Below are positions 659 through 33,342 of a DNA stretch of 43,353 nucleotides, one piece after another; positions within the stretch are counted from its first letter, which is position 1, and the number at the start of each line of letters is the position of its first letter. The stretch covers positions 1 to 43,353 of IMG/VR virus record IMGVR_UViG_3300009134_000006, one strand, 5' to 3'. The position numbers and the translations under genes were made by a program. The stretch comes from a virus. The notes below the pieces were generated by a model, which did not search any database, had not been told where the DNA came from, and saw only the letters and a list, made by a program, of their open reading frames with translations.

Positions 659-677
659 TTTGGGAGGTATAATCACA

Positions 678-1721
678 ATGCCGGCGGTGGTGGATTTATT
701 TTGTGGCGTGGGCGGGATGACTCATGGTTTTGTGAAAGAGAAATTTCGTGTAGTTGCTGGGATAGATATCGATAGAACTTGCAAATATGCATACGAGAAA
801 AATAATGATGCAAAATTCATCCATGCAGACGCAGAAAATTTATTCGCCAAAGATATCATACACCTTTTTCCAAAAAACAAAATCAAAATTTTGGTTGGTT
901 GTGCTCCATGCCAGCCCTTTTCGAAATATACAAATAGAAAGACGGAGGATCATAAATGGAGACTATTGTATTCGTTTTCCAGATTAATTACGGAAATTCA
1001 ACCAGATATCATATCGATGGAAAACGTCCCAGAATTATTGACATACAGAAAAAAAACCGTCTACGACGATTTTATTGATGTGTTAGAAAAAAACGGCTAT
1101 GCAATATGTTCGGAAGTCGTCTATTGCCCAGATTATGGCATTCCCCAAAAAAGAACCCGACTGGTTTTACTTGCGTCCAAATTTGGCCCAATAAAATTAT
1201 TACAAAAAACACATACGCTTTCAAAATACAAAACCGTAGCCGATACGATAAGAAATTTAGAAAAGATTGAAGCTGGCGAAGTCAGTAAAAAAGATCCGCT
1301 GCACAGATCTAGCTGGTTGTCCGGATTGAATAAGAAAAGAATAATTATGACCCCCTGCGGAGGTAGTTGGAAAAATTGGCCAATTGATTTGATTTGCGAT
1401 TGTCACAAAAAGGAAAGCGGGAAATCGTACGGCTCAATATACGGCAGAATGAAATGGGAAGAGCCATCGCCGACCATCACGACACAATTTAACGGTTTTG
1501 GGAATGGAAGATTCGGTCACCCCGAACAAAATAGAGCTATTTCGTTTCGCGAAGCGGCACTATTGCAAACTTTTCCTAAAGATTATGATTTTATAGATCC
1601 TTATGCCGGGTTCTCTTATAAAACGATCGCAAGACATATTGGCAATGCCGTACCTGTGAGATTGGCACAAATAATCGCCAGAAGTATAAAAAAACATTTG
1701 GAGAAATATTGTGAAAACTAA
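678..1721 (+). CDS. dcm: C5-cytosine DNA methyltransferase
   Basis: The 347-residue protein has all main m5C-MTase motifs in order: I (DLFCGVGGM, residues 6-14, SAM binding), IV (APCQPFS, 76-82, with catalytic Cys78), VI (ENV, 115-117), VIII (QKRTR, 157-161) and X (GNAVP, about 322-326). The region between VIII and IX is the likely target-recognition domain. ATG 678 follows GGGAGGT at 662-668; an in-frame TTG at 660 would be upstream of that site. It methylates a specific sequence on the phage and host genome and would protect it from a partner nuclease. It overlaps the next gene by 11 bases. The recognition sequence cannot be deduced. Confidence 0.95.
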   Translation: MPAVVDLFCGVGGMTHGFVKEKFRVVAGIDIDRTCKYAYEKNNDAKFIHADAENLFAKDIIHLFPKNKIKILVGCAPCQPFSKYTNRKTEDHKWRLLYSFSRLITEIQPDIISMENVPELLTYRKKTVYDDFIDVLEKNGYAICSEVVYCPDYGIPQKRTRLVLLASKFGPIKLLQKTHTLSKYKTVADTIRNLEKIEAGEVSKKDPLHRSSWLSGLNKKRIIMTPCGGSWKNWPIDLICDCHKKESGKSYGSIYGRMKWEEPSPTITTQFNGFGNGRFGHPEQNRAISFREAALLQTFPKDYDFIDPYAGFSYKTIARHIGNAVPVRLAQIIARSIKKHLEKYCEN

Positions 1722-3726
1722 GAAAAATGCTAAAATTGGAGGTCAGATCGTAAATGAGCAAGATAACGATATAGATAAAACTTATGAATTGACTGTCGAT
1801 CTTCAAGTATTGAAACATTTAGGTATAGGTCTTTACAGCAATGTTCCTGCTGTAATATCGGAAGTGGTGGCCAATGCATACGATGCTGATGCAGAAATCG
1901 TCGAAATTACTATTGATGATAATGAAATTGCAATCAAAGATGATGGTTTGGGAATGAATGTTGAGGATGCCAATAAAAAATACCTCATAGTTGGTTATGA
2001 AAAAAGAAAGGAAGAAACTGAAACTCCAAAATTGGGTCGTGATCCAATGGGACGCAAAGGTATTGGAAAACTTTCGGCATTCGCCATCGCCAACGAAGTT
2101 GAAATCCAATCTATTAAAACGGACCCCAAAACGGGAAAAGAGCTGGGAAGAACCGCGTTCGTTATGGACGTTGCCGAGATAGAGAAAAAAGCAAAGGCGA
2201 AGAAGTCCTATCACCCTCCTCCTCTTGACGTTTCTGATATTGATTTCGACAAAGGCACACGGGTCGTTTTACGTTCATTGAAAAGGAAACGTCGCATTAA
2301 TGCGACTTACCTTCGAGTCAATGTAGCAAGACGTTTTTCAATTCTCGGACAAAGTTTTCGGGTATTCGTAAATCAAGAAAAAGTTACTCCGGCCGATAGA
2401 CAATATTGGGATAAACTGCAATTTGTATGGGGTCTTGGAAAAAGTTCGGACTATGAACAGGCAATAAAAGGTAAAAAAGTTCGAAAGAACGAAGTTTTGA
2501 AAGAAATCATGAATATACCGGGCGAACCTGATAAAAAAGTGAGTGGATGGATCGGTACGGTTCATTTCCCAAAAGAGTTGAAAGATGGTTTGATTGATAA
2601 TAATGGGATAGTCGTAATGGCGCGTGGCAAATTGGTACACGAAAATTTACTTCCATTTGCGCGAACCGCACGGATATTCGCAGAATATGTCGTAGGTGAA
2701 ATAAACGCCGAGTGGATGGACATAGACGAGGAAATCGATATAGCAACGAGTGGTAGGCAAAGTTTGAAAGAAGACTATCCACGCTTCACGGCTCTACAGG
2801 AGTATACGAAAAAACGTTTGGATGAAATCGCCGGTAAATGGACAAAGTGGAGAAAAGAGGTCGGAGTCAAAGATGCGGTCGACAGACATCCGATATTACA
2901 AGATTGGTTGAATGGCATGACACGCGACAATCGTAAACATGCCGAGAAACTTATATCCACGATTGAAGGGATGCCTATCGCTGACGAAGAAGACAAGAAG
3001 GAACTGTTCAGACACGGCATCATGGCTTTCGAAACCCTCGCACTTAAAGGTAATTTGGAAGCGTTGAATAAAATGCAGATTGTTGATGTACAGAGTTTAA
3101 ATGAAATTCTAACGGCCATGGATGATTTGGAGGCAGCGCACTATTATCAATTAACCAAGACAAGATGGACGATATTAAAAGAGTTCGAAAAATTGGTGGA
3201 CAAAAACGCCAAAGAAAAATTTCTGCAAGATAAGATATGCAATCACCCATGGTTGATGGACGCAGCATGGGAAAGGGCCACCAATGACATTCGAAAGGAA
3301 AGAAGATTCACCACCGAACTCAAAGCCAAACGTCTTGGTCTGGATAAAAATAAGCAACTCTCCAGATATGATATTCGATACCTTACCGTTTCCGGCAAAG
3401 ATTTAGTCATAGAGTTGAAACGTAGAGGTCGCCGTTTGACTGTACCGGAAATAAGCAAACAAGTCAGAAAATATGCCGAGATTATAAATACTTTGGCGAA
3501 AGAATTCAACGGCAGTATGTCATCTACCCCCGACTTCGACATCATCGTTGTAGTAGGCATTCTTCCAACAGGCTATGGAGCCACTGACGAAGCTGCCTTG
3601 AAACCTTATAAAGCACAAATTATGACTTACGAAAGATTGATAAAACGTGCACGGACCACTTATGAAGATTATCTGAACAGACAAAAGGAAATCGAACGTA
3701 TCCAAAAAATGGTCGATAAACTTTGA
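1711..3726 (+). CDS. GHKL ATPase fused to a PD-(D/E)XK-like nuclease domain
   Basis: The N-terminus of this 671-residue protein is a GHKL (Hsp90/MutL/MORC-type) ATPase: N-box EVVANAYDADA (51-61), DDGLG (77-81) and GRKGIGK (114-120). Its C-terminal third contains NHPWL (511-515) and then D554 with a following strand VIELK (E568, K570) and QVRKY. This D...ExK pattern recalls the DUF4263/Shedu-type PD-(D/E)XK nucleases. The GTG start at 1711 has GGAG about 7 bases upstream and lies inside the methyltransferase gene, so the two are coupled. MutL/MORC-like ATPases in restriction-modification operons are known from comparative genomics (Iyer, Abhiman and Aravind, 2008). I infer an ATP-gated DNA-cleaving effector; the nuclease call is less sure than the ATPase. 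Confidence 0.8.
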   Translation: MKTKKNAKIGGQIVNEQDNDIDKTYELTVDLQVLKHLGIGLYSNVPAVISEVVANAYDADAEIVEITIDDNEIAIKDDGLGMNVEDANKKYLIVGYEKRKEETETPKLGRDPMGRKGIGKLSAFAIANEVEIQSIKTDPKTGKELGRTAFVMDVAEIEKKAKAKKSYHPPPLDVSDIDFDKGTRVVLRSLKRKRRINATYLRVNVARRFSILGQSFRVFVNQEKVTPADRQYWDKLQFVWGLGKSSDYEQAIKGKKVRKNEVLKEIMNIPGEPDKKVSGWIGTVHFPKELKDGLIDNNGIVVMARGKLVHENLLPFARTARIFAEYVVGEINAEWMDIDEEIDIATSGRQSLKEDYPRFTALQEYTKKRLDEIAGKWTKWRKEVGVKDAVDRHPILQDWLNGMTRDNRKHAEKLISTIEGMPIADEEDKKELFRHGIMAFETLALKGNLEALNKMQIVDVQSLNEILTAMDDLEAAHYYQLTKTRWTILKEFEKLVDKNAKEKFLQDKICNHPWLMDAAWERATNDIRKERRFTTELKAKRLGLDKNKQLSRYDIRYLTVSGKDLVIELKRRGRRLTVPEISKQVRKYAEIINTLAKEFNGSMSSTPDFDIIVVVGILPTGYGATDEAALKPYKAQIMTYERLIKRARTTYEDYLNRQKEIERIQKMVDKL

Positions 3727-3774
3727 ACTCATACAACGAAAATTCACTTATTTCCATCATTAAAAACCAATAAT

Positions 3775-5205: not shown

Positions 5206-5231
5206 GGAATTTGGGTTTAGGTTGGGTCATT
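5206..5231. repeat. 26-bp direct repeat, second copy
   Basis: These bases are identical to 4221-4246. The copy covers the last codons and the stop of the leftward methyltransferase gene (ends 5217). It is preceded by GTGATTTTGGGACCG (5190-5204), which resembles 4335-4349, and contains TGGGACCGG (5197-5205), also found near the left phage end (151-159). The pair encloses the one-TM protein gene. Confidence 0.85.
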
Positions 5232-6866
5232 TTCTTTGGTTGATTCTTTAAAGACATTAGGTTGCTGGATCTTATCCTTTCGGTGTTTTCGAGGTTTTTT
5301 GAATGTGATATCTTGCGAATGTATTTTCTCCGGCGGTCTATCTATTTTCGCACCTTTGAACAAATCCTCTATGGTTAATATTTGAATTTTGTCGTACTTT
5401 TTATTATACGGGGAAATATAATAGCCTGCTGCTAAAGCTTCTTGTTTCATCCCTTTAGTTGGCTCTTGGAGGGTGATCATTACTCCCATTGCTGCCTTTT
5501 CTCTGTCGACCGTACCTTTTAAATCACGAATGTCACTGGGGTGTACTGCACCACTTTTAACCTGAATAAGAATTTGTTTCGGCGGGCCACCTTTAGGATC
5601 ATCCTGAAAATATATATTACCGTCAATACCTCTATCGGCAGTTTTCTGAGTAGGTTTTGCTTTAACTAAACCTAATGCCCAGCTTTCAAACTGAAATCTT
5701 CCTCCTTTTTCTGCTAAATACTTAGCACCGGCAACATCTTTTGGTTCACCAACAACCTCATACTTTACCGAATAATCAAAAGTATCTTCGACTCTGTATT
5801 TCATTAATGCAATTGCAAGGTGTGTTATATCTATACCAATCCACTGCCTTTTTAATTTTTCTGCAGCAATTATTGTAGTCCCACAACCACAGAATGGGTC
5901 TAAAACTAAATCTCCTTCTTTAGAGCTTGCATTAAGAATTCTTTCTAAAAGTGACTCAGGTTTCTGGGTAGGATAACCTATTTTCTCTTTTGAAATTCCT
6001 TGCAGAGGATTTACTTCTTTATCTGTCCATAAATCAGAAACGATTTTGCCAGAAATATTTTTTAAATGAACTTTTTTCCTGTACATCCCCGTTTTTGTTT
6101 TATATATTAAGCCTTCCTTCCACCATCGTTCTAATTTTTCTTTAGAATAAAGCCACGGAGCCTTAACGCTCTTAAATTCAAACTCCTTTCTTCCTGGATA
6201 TTTTTGAAGACCACCTGCGACAATAGCGACAGTTTGATATGATCCCTTCCCATCGTCATCATCATGGCAAAAAGATTTCAAATATTTATCATCGAGATCC
6301 TTTGTGTAAATTTTGTGAAATTGTATATTTGACGATTTGCCATAAAGCAAGATGATGTCATGCTGGGTGCCAAAACCTTTACTTTGCGACTTCGGACTAT
6401 TGCTTCTTCTCCAAATAATTTCGTTTTGGAAATTCGTCCCTCCAAATACTGCATCCATTAAAAGCTTTAAATAATGACTTGCAGTAGGATCGCAATGAAG
6501 ATATATAGAACCAGTTGGTTTTAAAATACGGTGAAGCTCTATTAATCTAATAGCCATCATCACGAGATATGCGAGGAGATCATTGTTACCTAAGAATATT
6601 TGGAAAGCAACAATTAAATCCGCGACATGTTTTGGGGCTTTTTGTAATATCTCATCATATATTTCAACAGCCTTTCTGTCCCAATGCCAGGTATCTTCAA
6701 AAGCTTGGATTTGAGCTACTGATTTGCTACCGTTTTGTTCCTTGAAAAGAACATTGTAGTTTTGATCTGATTTGAATGGTGGATCTAAATAGATGAGAGC
6801 AACAGATTCGTCTTTTATGTGTTCCCGCAGAATGTCAAGATTATCGCCATAATAAAGTTTATTCAT
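5217..6866 (-). CDS. beta-class DNA methyltransferase fused to Mrr-like nuclease
   Basis: In this 549-residue protein the amino-methyltransferase motif IV LDPPF (27-31) comes first and the SAM-binding motif DPFCGCGTT (323-331) follows at the far end, which is the beta-class order. A C-terminal domain has D415 in RGIDG and QVKSG (435-439), the D...QxK core of Mrr-type restriction nucleases, then a basic tail. One chain would thus modify adenine-N6 or cytosine-N4 and possibly cleave DNA, a type II R-M arrangement on a single gene. It starts 7 bases after the repressor stop in the same direction, so it should be made in lysogens. It could also be a self-protecting methyltransferase whose nuclease domain acts on foreign DNA only. 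Confidence 0.88.
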   Translation of the reverse strand: MNKLYYGDNLDILREHIKDESVALIYLDPPFKSDQNYNVLFKEQNGSKSVAQIQAFEDTWHWDRKAVEIYDEILQKAPKHVADLIVAFQIFLGNNDLLAYLVMMAIRLIELHRILKPTGSIYLHCDPTASHYLKLLMDAVFGGTNFQNEIIWRRSNSPKSQSKGFGTQHDIILLYGKSSNIQFHKIYTKDLDDKYLKSFCHDDDDGKGSYQTVAIVAGGLQKYPGRKEFEFKSVKAPWLYSKEKLERWWKEGLIYKTKTGMYRKKVHLKNISGKIVSDLWTDKEVNPLQGISKEKIGYPTQKPESLLERILNASSKEGDLVLDPFCGCGTTIIAAEKLKRQWIGIDITHLAIALMKYRVEDTFDYSVKYEVVGEPKDVAGAKYLAEKGGRFQFESWALGLVKAKPTQKTADRGIDGNIYFQDDPKGGPPKQILIQVKSGAVHPSDIRDLKGTVDREKAAMGVMITLQEPTKGMKQEALAAGYYISPYNKKYDKIQILTIEDLFKGAKIDRPPEKIHSQDITFKKPRKHRKDKIQQPNVFKESTKENDPT

Positions 6867-9274: not shown

Positions 9275-9502
9275 ATGATTTTTAAAAAGATGATTACAGT
9301 GATGAAAAGACCGATTACAGCGATAACAAGGAAATGGCGAAGGTGGCGGGCTGGTCTTTTTCTGGGTCGGTTGCGTAAGATGTTGTTAAGGTTGAATGAT
9401 AAATTAAAGAATGCAGGGTTTACACGGCACGAGCGGAGAAGGATATCCCATAATATTTTGAAAAACATTGAAGATGCGGTAAGCACTTTTTTGAAGGAAT
9501 AA
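9275..9502 (+). CDS. small very basic early protein
   Basis: The protein has 75 residues with clusters such as RKWRRWRAG and RHERRR, suggesting nucleic-acid contact. AAGGGGG precedes the ATG. No family is recognised. Confidence 0.55.
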   Translation: MIFKKMITVMKRPITAITRKWRRWRAGLFLGRLRKMLLRLNDKLKNAGFTRHERRRISHNILKNIEDAVSTFLKE

Positions 9503-28723: not shown

Positions 28724-30190
28724 ATGGTAACTTTAGATTTGCCAGATGTTTATACTGAGGAGATAACTCCATCAGGGGCACCGGTTAAAGGTGTTGGTAC
28801 TGGAAAGGGATCACTGGTCGGTAAGTTCAAAAAGGGCGATGTGAATACGAACATTATTTGCGGAAACTGGGAACAGCTTGTCGAGTATCTCGGTGGGCTG
28901 GCGATTGGCAGTGCAGCATACGATGCTTACTGGTTTTTCAAAAACAAAGGTTCATTTCTGAATGTGGTCAGGGTCCAGGGTACTGCAGCGAACGTGACGC
29001 TTGTAGACCGTGGCGTGCCCGATGACAAGATAAAAGTCACGGCACTGGTTGACGGCACGTTTGCAAATTATGTAGCATCACCAAAAGCAGGAATTCAGGT
29101 GATCATTGCCGACGGGACAATCACTGATACATTCAAGATAACATTCAAATTCTATTATCAGGAAAAAGGTGTGGATAAAGAATACGTGGAAACCTGGGAT
29201 AATCTTTCGATTGTTACGACTGCAGCGCGTTACTTCCCGACCATTCTCAATGACGAGGCGAATGGTAGCAAAATGGTTTCTGTTGAGGATCTCACACCGG
29301 GCAATGAGACACCACCTGGCCATTTACCGGCAACTGGTACGTTTGATCTGGTGAGCGGTGTTGAGCCAGATTATGTTGGCAGCGGCACTCCAGCGGGTAT
29401 TGATATTCTGGAGAAGGAAGACGATATCAATATTGTGTTTACAGACAAAGATGATTCTTCAACCAGGACATCGCAAATCACTCACTGCGAAAACATGGGT
29501 GACCGTCAAACCGTGCTGAATCCATCTATATATCAGACTGTGACCGAGGTAAAAGCGATTGGCGATGCATACGATACAGACCGGGCAGTTCTTGTTTACC
29601 CCTGGGTTGTAGCATACGACCCAATAATGCAGGTTCAGAGATCTTTTAGACCAGCAGGATTCAGAGCCGGGGTCATGTCACGCATCGATGCATATCTCTC
29701 GCCATGTAATCATACAGTATACGGAGCAATCGATTTGGAACGTCAACTTTCACGTGCTGATCTGGTTTCTTTGCAGGATTCCAAGATTTCACCAACGTAC
29801 TGGTGGGGCACTCGTGGTATCAGGATTCGGAATGGGCTTAATTGTTCTTCGAATGTAAATTTGAGCCAGGTGTACCGCAGACGCATGGCTGACTACATCA
29901 TGGAATCGATTGAGGATTCATTTGGCTGGGCTGTATCATTGCCTATTACACCGGAGAATCGTGATGCGCTCTCGAGCGGGATTGTAAACTGGTTTAGAAA
30001 TCTGCAGCTTGCCGGTTGGATTGAAGCATTCTTTGTCAAATGTGATGAAGAAAATAATCCGCCTGCAGTTCAGGCAGCACGTAAATGTGTTGTCCGCTAC
30101 GGTGTAAAACTCTTTAACGTGATGGATTTCATTGTGTTCGAAGCTGAGATTGGACCTAATGTTGTTACTACAACTGAAGGAGGTGCATAA
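28724..30190 (+). CDS. contractile tail sheath protein
   Basis: The 488-residue protein starts with the usual sheath opening (LPDVYTEEITPSGAPVKGVGTGKGSLVG). The C-terminal part (RADYIMESIEDSFGW-like RMADYIMESIEDSF; TPENRDALSSGIVNWFRNL) matches myophage sheath subdomains. A contractile tail makes this a myovirus-type particle. It has a strong AAGGAGG site and a coupled tube gene. Confidence 0.92.
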   Translation: MVTLDLPDVYTEEITPSGAPVKGVGTGKGSLVGKFKKGDVNTNIICGNWEQLVEYLGGLAIGSAAYDAYWFFKNKGSFLNVVRVQGTAANVTLVDRGVPDDKIKVTALVDGTFANYVASPKAGIQVIIADGTITDTFKITFKFYYQEKGVDKEYVETWDNLSIVTTAARYFPTILNDEANGSKMVSVEDLTPGNETPPGHLPATGTFDLVSGVEPDYVGSGTPAGIDILEKEDDINIVFTDKDDSSTRTSQITHCENMGDRQTVLNPSIYQTVTEVKAIGDAYDTDRAVLVYPWVVAYDPIMQVQRSFRPAGFRAGVMSRIDAYLSPCNHTVYGAIDLERQLSRADLVSLQDSKISPTYWWGTRGIRIRNGLNCSSNVNLSQVYRRRMADYIMESIEDSFGWAVSLPITPENRDALSSGIVNWFRNLQLAGWIEAFFVKCDEENNPPAVQAARKCVVRYGVKLFNVMDFIVFEAEIGPNVVTTTEGGA

Positions 30191-30609
30191 TGCCAAAACG
30201 AGCTATAGTATCAAGACAGGTTACTGGCCAGATAATTGGTCCTGATGGACCGGTCGACTGCGGTAAATGGGATGAGATTACTCTACCCAGTGAAATCGAG
30301 ATGTTAGAACATAAAACACTTGACGGAAAAACTGAATATCTGGTTGAAGGATTTAAGTACTCAGGAACATTGAAACGCGGTGTTTATGATCCAACGATTG
30401 CGCATATTATCTGGGATCTTGCACATCCCGGAGATGTGGATCCGCCAAGACATTTGATTTTGGTTACGGAAAAATATAATGATGGTTCAATTGAGCAACG
30501 GTTATACAAAGAAGTTCTGTTCACAAAAAGCGGAGAGACTATTGCACGCGGTGCACCGGTAACTGAAGATATTGACTGGGTGGCTGAGGATATGGAAGTT
30601 TTGACATAA
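30190..30609 (+). CDS. tail tube protein
   Basis: The 139-residue protein is beta-rich (YLVEGFKYSGTLKRG...) and follows the sheath directly, as in all Mu-like tail modules. The ATG overlaps the sheath stop by one base. Confidence 0.85.
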   Translation: MPKRAIVSRQVTGQIIGPDGPVDCGKWDEITLPSEIEMLEHKTLDGKTEYLVEGFKYSGTLKRGVYDPTIAHIIWDLAHPGDVDPPRHLILVTEKYNDGSIEQRLYKEVLFTKSGETIARGAPVTEDIDWVAEDMEVLT

Positions 30610-30674: not shown

Positions 30675-30726
30675 CGGCCGTATTAAAAGACATGGTGACA
30701 AGGGGATGGGGAGACAAGGAGGTTTT

Positions 30727-31074
30727 ATGAGAGAGATTGAATTTAAATTGCCGAGTGGCAAAAAGGTGAAGATGCGAGAGTCCACTGGTCTGGACCAGCT
30801 CGCTGCAAGAAGAAGGTTCATTGGTAAAAGCGATGATGAAAAAACAAATGTTCCCTGGGAAGAGATATCCAGTTGTATAATTGAAATCGAAGGGATGAAA
30901 TCGGTAAAAGGATATGAACAATTATTACAACTTTCGAATAAAGACCTAACTGCTTTGCTTTTTGCATATAATGAATTCAATACACTGACTGCCGAAGAAA
31001 TGAAGGATCTGAAAAGTTTTTTCGATTCAGGGAAGACCTCAGGCAAATCGCCCAAGCCAGTGGTTACAGCTTAG
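30727..31074 (+). CDS. tail assembly chaperone, unshifted product
   Basis: The protein has 115 residues from ATG 30727 (AAGGAGG upstream; the longer open frame to 30616 reads through the hairpin and has no site). Strands come first and then helices (MREIEFKLPSGKKVKMREST...), as in gp41/E-type tail chaperones. It lies between tube and tape measure, the conserved place for this frameshifting gene. Confidence 0.82.
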   Translation: MREIEFKLPSGKKVKMRESTGLDQLAARRRFIGKSDDEKTNVPWEEISSCIIEIEGMKSVKGYEQLLQLSNKDLTALLFAYNEFNTLTAEEMKDLKSFFDSGKTSGKSPKPVVTA

Positions 31075-31172
31075 ATGAGATTTTGAAGATGTCTCTCAAT
31101 GAAAGAGATGCCCTGGTAGAGATTATTAAAGAAGATAAGAAGTTAGGAGTAATTAAGCATGGCGATGCGTGA
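30727..31172 (+). CDS. tail assembly chaperone, -1 frameshift fusion
   Basis: Slipping back one base at T-TTT-TTC (31017-31023) joins the first 99 codons to 49 codons in the -1 frame, ending TGA 31170-31172 inside the tape-measure start. The added part (REDLRQIAQASGYSLDEILKM then SLNERDALVEIIKEDKKLG) looks like true protein, with a helix-turn pattern seen in the T extension of such chaperones. The fusion has about 148 residues and probably binds the tape measure while the short form binds tube subunits. Confidence 0.82.
31017..31023 (+). promoter_or_regulatory. programmed -1 frameshift site
   Basis: TTTTTTC is in the X-XXY-YYZ register relative to the chaperone frame (codons AGT TTT TTC). 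Both tRNAs can re-pair after a one-base slip, leading to CGA TTC AGG. The downstream -1 frame stays open for 49 codons and lacks its own start site. Confidence 0.82.
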
Positions 31173-33342
31173 AGCCTTCACAGTCGGAATTGTACTTGCT
31201 GCCAAAGATATGTATTCCGGTGTCATGGCAAAGGCACAGCGGAATCTGGGCATTCTACGCAAAACATCAACAAAATCAGCCGACGCTTTTGAAAAATCGA
31301 TGAAGCGATTCCAGGCTATTACCGCAGTTGGCGCAACAATGTCCGTAGTTTCCGGACAAATATCTGGCAAGATTCAGGAGATGACTACAGATGCTATAAA
31401 TTTTAGTGATGCGATGGGAAAAATCGGGACTGTAGTATTGCGAAATATTGGAGGATTTAAATCGCACCAAGCAGCAATGGAGGCATGGAGAACTAAAGGT
31501 TTGGATGTTTCAACGAGATCTTTATATAGTGCCTCAGAATTAATCAATGATGTAGCATATAATCTGATGTCTTCAGGGCTGAAAGCCGATACGGCAATGG
31601 ATTTAATGGAATCCGTATCGAACACGGCAATAGCAACAATCGGTGATCTGGATACGACATCAGCGTTATTCGGGTCGATTATGAATACTTTTGGACGACG
31701 ATGGGATATGAGTGCTCTGGAAAAAGGCGAACGGATTATGAATGTTTTATCTGGCGCAGTAAAAAAATTCACAATGACTGGTAATATTCTGGCGGCAGGA
31801 ATGCAATATGCAACGGCAGCATCTCAATCTATGAACATACCTTTTGAAGATACAATTGCAATTTTGGGAATGTTGAATTCTCGTAGCATTGAATCGACGA
31901 AGGCAGGAACGGCTTTCATGGCATTTATTAGAGAATTACCCGATGCGACAAAGAAAATGGGGATTACAATAGCTGATGCGAGTGGCAAATTGTTGCCCAT
32001 GTCGGATATTTTCCAGAATATTGAAAAAAGATTAAAAGGGATGAGCGAGATCAAACGGACTATTTTACTGAATAAGGCATTAGGTGAAGAAGGTTCAAAG
32101 CTGATTAAGATATTGATGGGAACCAGTGATGAATTACGAGAAAATATATCTTTTTTACAAGAATCAGGGATTGCTGCACAAATGGTTAAAGAACGAATGG
32201 GTACATTGTCTGCAGAGGTGGAAATGCAAGAACACAGGTGGCAAAATTTACGCATTGAATTAGGTGGAAAAGCAGCACCGGTGATGTTAGGTTTAAAGAA
32301 AGGTGTGCTTGAACTCGTGGATGTGCTTGGTGAAATCCCTCATGCTAAGGCATTTACCGGTACTACATTAGGCATTATTGGTATGGCGGCAGAAATTGGC
32401 AAGACAATCGGACCGGCTTTGACCATGGTTGGCGTGCTCGGTATGTGGAAGACTCAGGCGGCTCTGGCAGCAACAGCGCAAGCGGCACTTAATAAACAGA
32501 TGGGTATAGGTGCAGCAACAGCAGGAACCCAGGCAATGAAAATGGGTAGGTTGGGATCAAAGGGTGGAGCATTGGTTGGAGTTCTTGGCAGAGTAGCAGC
32601 AGTCGGTGCTGCGGCATTTATTGGCTGGGAGATTGGTACTTTGCTAAGACAAATACCCGGGCTTGATAAGGAGGTACAAAGGCTTTTAGCGACATTAACA
32701 GGCGCTGATTTAGGTGAAAAATGGGAGAATGAAACTGACATAATCGCAAAGTGTTGGGATAAAATAAGAAAAAAAGCGGAATTAACAAATGAAGAGCTGA
32801 AAACTTTTATTTTATTTCAAGTAGAATCAACAAAAAAAGCAGGATATAGTTTAGAGGAATTTTTTGCAAAAATGGAGAGGCTTGGATTTGAAGAAAAAGA
32901 AATTAGAATAATTGTTGAAGAAAGCAAAAAGGAATTACGTGAATCAGAAGCTAAATTTAGGGCATCTGCGACACCAATCCCATTAGGAGGATTATTTTAT
33001 CCTAAAAAAGCTTATGAACTTACTGAAGCCGAAATAGAAGAAAGAAGACGCAAAGAAGATATTAAAAAAAGAGAAAAAGAAGCAAAGGAATCTTGGAAAG
33101 GGTTTCAAACCGGCACGGCACGTGTACCTAAAACTGGCTGGGCATTCGTACATGAAGGTGAGGAAATAAAACCAAAGTCAATGGCAGGCGGTGGCGGTAC
33201 TACAATAACAAATTATTTTGGAGATATCATTTTACCACAAGCAGCAACCGGGTCAGCACAGATGGATGCACGCAGTTATGCACGGGCATTAATACAGGAG
33301 ATTAATCGGGTGATGAAAATAGAAGGGAAGAGACAACCATAA
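31159..33342 (+). CDS. tail tape measure protein
   Basis: The 727-residue protein has an N-terminal segment (VGIVLAAKDMYSGVMAKAQRNLGIL) and a helical core typical of TP901-family tape measures, with hydrophobic stretches near 400-500 (LGIIGMAAEIGKTIGPALTMVGVL and further). At about 1.5 Angstrom per residue it predicts a tail near 110 nm, by the usual rule. The start overlaps the end of the frameshifted chaperone. Confidence 0.92.
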   Translation: MAMREAFTVGIVLAAKDMYSGVMAKAQRNLGILRKTSTKSADAFEKSMKRFQAITAVGATMSVVSGQISGKIQEMTTDAINFSDAMGKIGTVVLRNIGGFKSHQAAMEAWRTKGLDVSTRSLYSASELINDVAYNLMSSGLKADTAMDLMESVSNTAIATIGDLDTTSALFGSIMNTFGRRWDMSALEKGERIMNVLSGAVKKFTMTGNILAAGMQYATAASQSMNIPFEDTIAILGMLNSRSIESTKAGTAFMAFIRELPDATKKMGITIADASGKLLPMSDIFQNIEKRLKGMSEIKRTILLNKALGEEGSKLIKILMGTSDELRENISFLQESGIAAQMVKERMGTLSAEVEMQEHRWQNLRIELGGKAAPVMLGLKKGVLELVDVLGEIPHAKAFTGTTLGIIGMAAEIGKTIGPALTMVGVLGMWKTQAALAATAQAALNKQMGIGAATAGTQAMKMGRLGSKGGALVGVLGRVAAVGAAAFIGWEIGTLLRQIPGLDKEVQRLLATLTGADLGEKWENETDIIAKCWDKIRKKAELTNEELKTFILFQVESTKKAGYSLEEFFAKMERLGFEEKEIRIIVEESKKELRESEAKFRASATPIPLGGLFYPKKAYELTEAEIEERRRKEDIKKREKEAKESWKGFQTGTARVPKTGWAFVHEGEEIKPKSMAGGGGTTITNYFGDIILPQAATGSAQMDARSYARALIQEINRVMKIEGKRQP

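Follow-up and report, generated by a model that had tools for sequence, protein, structure and literature searches.

Organization of the tail locus

The window—as we call the whole 43,353-nt stretch of viral DNA analyzed here—contains a run of tail genes in the order sheath, putative tube, chaperone and tape measure (Table 1), which puts the chaperone in the position that G and GT occupy. Within the chaperone gene, the heptamer T-TTT-TTC is set in the codon register X XXY YYZ, and no other XXXYYYZ is in register where the 0 frame and the −1 frame overlap. A protein that changed frame at this point would be a G-T fusion of 148 aa. The tape measure gene begins inside the −1 frame, sharing its last 14 nt in the window and an ATGA in the relatives. 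The putative tube matches no named family; phrog_12993, of unknown function, is found at 2.2e-4. In the annotation of SNW-1, the best match to the tape measure, the ORFs are separate, with none marked as a fusion.

Table 1. Features of the window discussed in the text, and of the T4 and PF12322-type loci compared with it
Feature	Position	Strand	Evidence or remark
Tail sheath	28724–30190	+	PF17482, 2.5e-13; phrog_23 tail sheath, 5.6e-48
Putative tail tube	30190–30609	+	Position after sheath; conserved in L004–L006 (64–65%) and L082 (45%)
Shine-Dalgarno AAGGAGG of chaperone gene	30716–30722	+	Sequence
Tail assembly chaperone, 0-frame product (G), 115 aa	30727–31074	+	Start ATG 30727, stop 31072–31074; homologues in L001–L003, predicted fold
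AGGA, SD-like, 9 nt upstream of heptamer	31004–31007	+	Candidate weak stimulator only
Slippery heptamer T-TTT-TTC, in register	31017–31023	+	Conserved in 3/3 close relatives
−1 frame extension (T domain), 49 codons + stop	31023–31172	+	Frame open 30975–31169, stop 31170–31172; homologous −1 extensions in L001–L003 and L082
Tape measure protein	31159–33342	+	PF10145, 8.6e-28; phrog_28 tail length tape measure, 1.4e-41
T4 gp26 and gp51, neighbours on opposite strands	L099:2303–2929 and 2980–3729	− and +	PF12322
PF12322-type protein and T-like +1 segment	L087:7504–8446; L100:639–1746; L101:642–1725; L102:714–1788		Stops CTC TGA, CTC TAA, CTA TAA

The initial annotation had placed the heptamer exactly in register, and had described the −1 frame as open for 49 codons of protein-like sequence with no start of its own. 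The first two statements are correct to the base (31017–31023 for the heptamer, 31172 for the end of the frame), and the extension does have gene-like codon usage: beyond the 0-frame stop it scores 8.6, a value that no stop-free off-frame window attains (0 of 1,359) and that ranks at the 86th percentile among windows of true coding sequence. The last statement needs amending. Late in the −1 frame there are two possible starts, TTG 31083 and ATG 31089, and inspection of the sequence upstream of them reveals no ribosome-binding site for either.

On its own, the heptamer is weak evidence, and only moderately surprising, because sites of this kind arise at appreciable rates by chance. When the 0-frame protein was recoded synonymously 20,000 times at the codon frequencies of the window, 1.6% of the sequences contained TTTTTTC in register inside the overlap—not a vanishing rate for independent origin—and 15.5% contained an XXXYYYZ of one sort or another. 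Across 51 forward ORFs, chosen by hand, there are 97 in-register XXXYYYZ heptamers, of which seven, this one included, lead past the 0-frame stop. An in-register TTTTTTG at window positions 9487–9493, near the end of the ORF at 9275–9502 and likewise with an open −1 frame, was considered as a second frameshift and rejected; it is probably there by chance, since the next ORF has an ATG and a ribosome site of its own.

Folding the RNA downstream of the heptamer disclosed no stimulatory structure, all six folds being no stronger than those of shuffled sequences (z +0.1 to +1.8). The AGGA upstream is invariant in all four aligned sequences, and this invariance may be a consequence of the conserved Lys/Glu-Asp codons in which it lies. 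A weak site that lacks a stimulator would be in keeping with a low ratio of fusion product here.

Predicted fold of the 0-frame domain

Pfam has no chaperone model that matches the window protein, whose identity is suggested by gene order and predicted structure. The AlphaFold model of the 0-frame domain (pLDDT 83.8) has a chaperone fold: it superimposes on YqbN (3klu; Z 8.6, rmsd 2.6, 82 aligned), which we take to be a chaperone, on the HK97 chaperone (2ob9; Z 6.8, rmsd 3.5, 79 aligned) and on a Vibrio PICI-element protein (5ir0; Z 5.3, rmsd 4.4, 84 aligned), with the next row falling to Z 2.1 (all VIA). The likeness to YqbN and HK97 is one of modeled fold, whereas identity is 10–20% and the Foldseek E-values are non-significant; HK97 ranks first there for the 0-frame model, at an E-value of 0.18. 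Among the named BFVD rows for the same model are chaperones of tail assembly and hub assembly proteins like those of T4.

Relatives and conservation of the site

Queries of IMG/VR with the chaperone, tube and sheath gave three contigs with close relatives of the chaperone (L001–L003; 64–65% protein identity), and a query with the tape measure gave none. A fourth relative, distant, was reached by way of the tube alignment (L082), and a fifth, very distant, by way of a widened sheath alignment (L087; sheath 22%). The genome contigs database yielded no relative of the chaperone, and the named phages no match for the 0-frame protein, the tube or the T domain of L001. The sheath profile found 68 loci in genome contigs at 22–31% identity, many of them actinobacterial; presumably these are injection systems, and they were left out of the analysis.

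The heptamer is present at the same codons in all three close relatives, the carriers thus being just four close sequences with the window included. The length of the 0 frame after the heptamer is identical in the three, and each has a homologous −1 extension, of the form RFR..L...A...GYS..IL.M...ER. No stretch of the DNA alignment is invariant over a greater length than GTTTTTTCG. At codon 97 the amino acid differs (Ser/Gly, AGT/GGT) and the third-base T that the heptamer requires is retained. Such retention is scarce overall—the third base is kept in only 4 of the 34 codons with different amino acids—and where the amino acid is the same, 23 of 65 codons are identical.

Comparison of L001–L003 in pairs reveals which frame is under constraint. 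Before the heptamer, differences fall mainly at frame-0 third positions (13 of 16, 15 of 17 and 10 of 13), and they change only 1–2 of 96 amino acids in frame 0 versus 12–16 of 96 in frame −1. After the heptamer the balance tips the other way, to 3–5 changes in 16 amino acids in frame 0 versus 1–2 in 15 in frame −1 over the next 48 bases, and, past the 0-frame stop, to 9 in 30 in frame 0 versus 4 in 29 in frame −1, all of these being small counts from mutually close sequences. As the alignments read, the constrained frame changes from 0 to −1 at the heptamer, and conservation of the site is, at the level of sequence, the decisive evidence for the frameshift. The initial annotation had named, among the findings that would speak against it, relatives whose −1 frame is interrupted by stops; such stops were looked for and are absent from all three close relatives; a canonical −1 tail-chaperone frameshift, as first proposed, is the best reading of the locus.

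That the split is a sequencing error, or the remnant of a decayed gene, is exceedingly improbable: three other contigs have the identical split, the same heptamer and the 0-frame stop at the same position. The −1 segment might, alternatively, be a separate small protein begun at TTG 31083 or ATG 31089. Both codons exist, and in two of the Streptomyces phages described below, LuckySocke and BRock, the corresponding T-like segment has been annotated as an ORF with its own start. Neither start has a visible ribosome-binding site, however; initiation at either would discard the first helix (residues 2–13) and the conserved RFR..L...A part; and the constraint on the −1 frame begins not at these codons but right at the heptamer. 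We regard a separate protein as very unlikely.

In L082, whose tube is 45% identical to that of the window, the −1 T domain is retained after GAT TTC TCA, without a canonical heptamer. The chaperone ORF of this contig (L082:5590–6422) has an organization of its own: two tandem G-like domains, with 44 of 105 aligned residues mutually identical, and then the T domain. A pair of GGGGACTGTCCC-type repeats (L082:5755–5780 and 6118–6143; also found in L086) occupies the same place in both G copies, and a 12-mer of this repeat occurs nine times in the 13.4 kb of L086.

Comparison with P2, lambda and Mu

The window resembles P2 E/E+E' in gene order, in the direction of the shift, in register, in heptamer class and in having an extension of similar, short length. 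A downstream hairpin is absent from both; P2 and its Burkholderia relatives have no RNA structure downstream of the frameshift site, according to PMC3091744, where a −1 shift on a heptamer of the TTTTTTG class is the rule for P2-family tails. We examined P2 itself and seven further loci, chosen for diversity among the matches listed (40 of the 253 records matching P2 E'). GpE lies in the −1 frame in all eight, and T-TTT-TT(G/C) is present in seven, as in-register TTTTTTG in six and as TTTTTTC in Vibrio phage MAR; Mannheimia phage 587AP1 has neither. The eight are not a random sample, since they were found by GpE sequence. P2 has T-TTT-TTG, and the window differs in its last base, C, as does phage MAR.

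Family membership is where the two part company. The window protein matches neither PF10109 nor PF06528, whereas P2 E and E' match these models at 1.5e-12 and 2.1e-22. The T domain and GpE can be aligned weakly (hhalign P 0.0032, probability 9.9), with a score that none of 200 column shuffles reach; sequence homology between the 0-frame domain and P2 E is not supported.

The P2 family bears, too, on whether the fusion could be made by RNA polymerase rather than by the ribosome. Slippage of the polymerase on the run of six Ts that the window contains, adding one extra T to some transcripts, would produce the same protein as ribosomal slippage, and could give an identical junction peptide. Six Ts are short for slippage by a bacterial polymerase, however, and the exact T-TTT-TTC codon register, the same in seven of eight P2-family loci, suits tandem slippage of tRNAs. 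Polymerase slippage is accordingly unlikely, and we prefer slippage by the ribosome.

Lambda differs from the window in its heptamer and its sequence, and the window phage, in addition, has a contractile tail. The likeness to lambda G/GT lies in a major unfused and a minor fused chaperone encoded before the tape measure, two products that lambda makes at about 30:1 (PMC5009743).

Mu has the same myovirus order of sheath, tube, chaperone and tape measure, and the window encodes a transposase and a DNA transposition protein of the Mu kind (phrog_310, 1.5e-31; phrog_296, 4.4e-32). The initial annotation noted that Mu uses a −2 shift, and concluded that this phage differs. Mu gp41 is indeed made by a −2 frameshift, according to PMC2628397 and PMC5009743. 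As against Mu, the conclusion stands, for the window shift is −1; as a statement about phages at large it goes too far, the heptamer class being the rule in P2-family tails. Mu has no T-TTT-TTN within the stretch examined, and the window, for its part, has no match to PF23746.

Proposed mechanism

Frameshifted tail chaperones are ordinary and widespread among phages. The one described here is real and ordinary as well: it belongs to a new lineage with a P2-type −1 shift in its tail chaperone. From the sequence, the model and the analogy with known systems, it is very probable that the frameshift is a conventional one of the G/GT or P2 E/E+E' kind, by which the chaperone is made in two forms. 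We infer that the slippage is ribosomal and its rate low, and that G and T have the roles they have elsewhere. Most ribosomes would stay in frame 0 and stop at 31072, yielding the 115-aa G. A minority, with tRNA-Phe in both the P and the A site on TTT-TTC, would slip back by one base and re-pair on TTT-TTT; CGA would be read next, and translation would proceed in the −1 frame to give the 148-aa fusion, in which the 16-residue tail of G is replaced by a predicted helical T domain of 49 residues. If lambda G/GT and P2 E/E+E' are a guide, many copies of G would cover the product of the next gene, the tape measure protein, a few copies of GT would recruit tube subunits through T, and both would depart before the tail is completed.

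The lineage thus follows the G/GT rule without having a recognized chaperone family, and adds such a phage lineage to the rule. An annotator would otherwise overlook the second product.

The T domain and T4 gp26 and gp51

The model of the T domain comprises three predicted helices (pLDDT 74). A profile of five T-domain sequences, L082 among them, aligns with the C-terminal tail of gp51, represented by T4 and eight other T4-like phages (hhalign P 8.1e-5), at a probability, 61%, that is only moderate. The alignment has 37% identity over 30 columns, namely columns 220–249 of 255, at the very end of gp51, and its score is 29.9; none of 200 column shuffles reach this, the highest being 18.0. Both gp26 and gp51 belong to PF12322, which covers residues 1–206 of the 208 in gp26 and residues 1–201 of the 249 in gp51. 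What gp51 has beyond the family is thus an extra tail of 48 residues, and its paralogue, gp26, does without. Since the T domain matches the gp51 tail, and that tail is absent from gp26, the two T4 proteins may be G and GT encoded as two genes.

Other comparisons with T4 are fainter. For the model of the window's G domain, BFVD shows a resemblance to hub assembly proteins of the T4 type (TMq 0.60–0.64), and the first BFVD row for the T model is a baseplate hub assembly catalyst, from phage ZZ1, at a non-significant E of 0.53. The whole fusion matches phrog_150 and phrog_634, of the T4-type hub, weakly (0.0025 and 0.065), and for one of four members only. The 0-frame domain gives no sequence match to gp51 (hhalign P 0.34) and none to PF12322. 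T4 differs from the window, moreover, in that its two genes lie on opposite strands and neither is annotated with a frameshift.

A third arrangement appears in the Streptomyces phages LuckySocke, BRock and pSt2308, and in L087. In all four, a T-like segment lies behind a PF12322-type protein, in the +1 frame, and continues without interruption over the 0-frame stop. The family assignment was made by Pfam for L087, and the proteins of the three named phages are homologous to that of L087 at 35–38%. The profile of this T-like segment matches the window T domain at P 1.7e-5 (probability 79%). A shorter T-like ORF is annotated in two of the three named records, LuckySocke and BRock, and none in pSt2308; a fusion is annotated in none of the four. 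We consider a +1 or −2 frameshift in these phages a candidate lead, suggested by their reading frames.

We see about an even chance that these observations have a single explanation: that the T domain is one widespread module attached to a G-type chaperone by at least three different means—by −1 slippage in the window and in the P2 family, by a +1-frame ORF that runs over the stop of a PF12322-type protein, or as part of a second gene. T4 gp26 would then be G, and gp51 would be GT, the fused form of the chaperone, delivering subunits to hub and tape measure, gene duplication having taken the place of the frameshift. The link to T4, drawn as it is from profile alignments, is unproven. In PMC3004832, gp51 is essential and described as 'of unknown function', and searches of openly licensed papers, PMC10885494, PMC3004832, PMC11948020 and PMC9024508 among them, brought up none that relates gp26 and gp51 as G and GT. 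The link would matter more than the frameshift itself, and may explain what gp51 is. If the T domain and the gp51 tail are the same thing, the role of this essential protein becomes directly testable by standard T4 genetics.

Other genes of the window

Besides the tail genes, the window encodes portal and capsid proteins. The stretches at 660–3726 and 5217–6866 encode a DNA methyltransferase (phrog_116) with an HATPase-domain protein after it and, on the minus strand, another methyltransferase; the phage may carry these genes as cargo at its left end.
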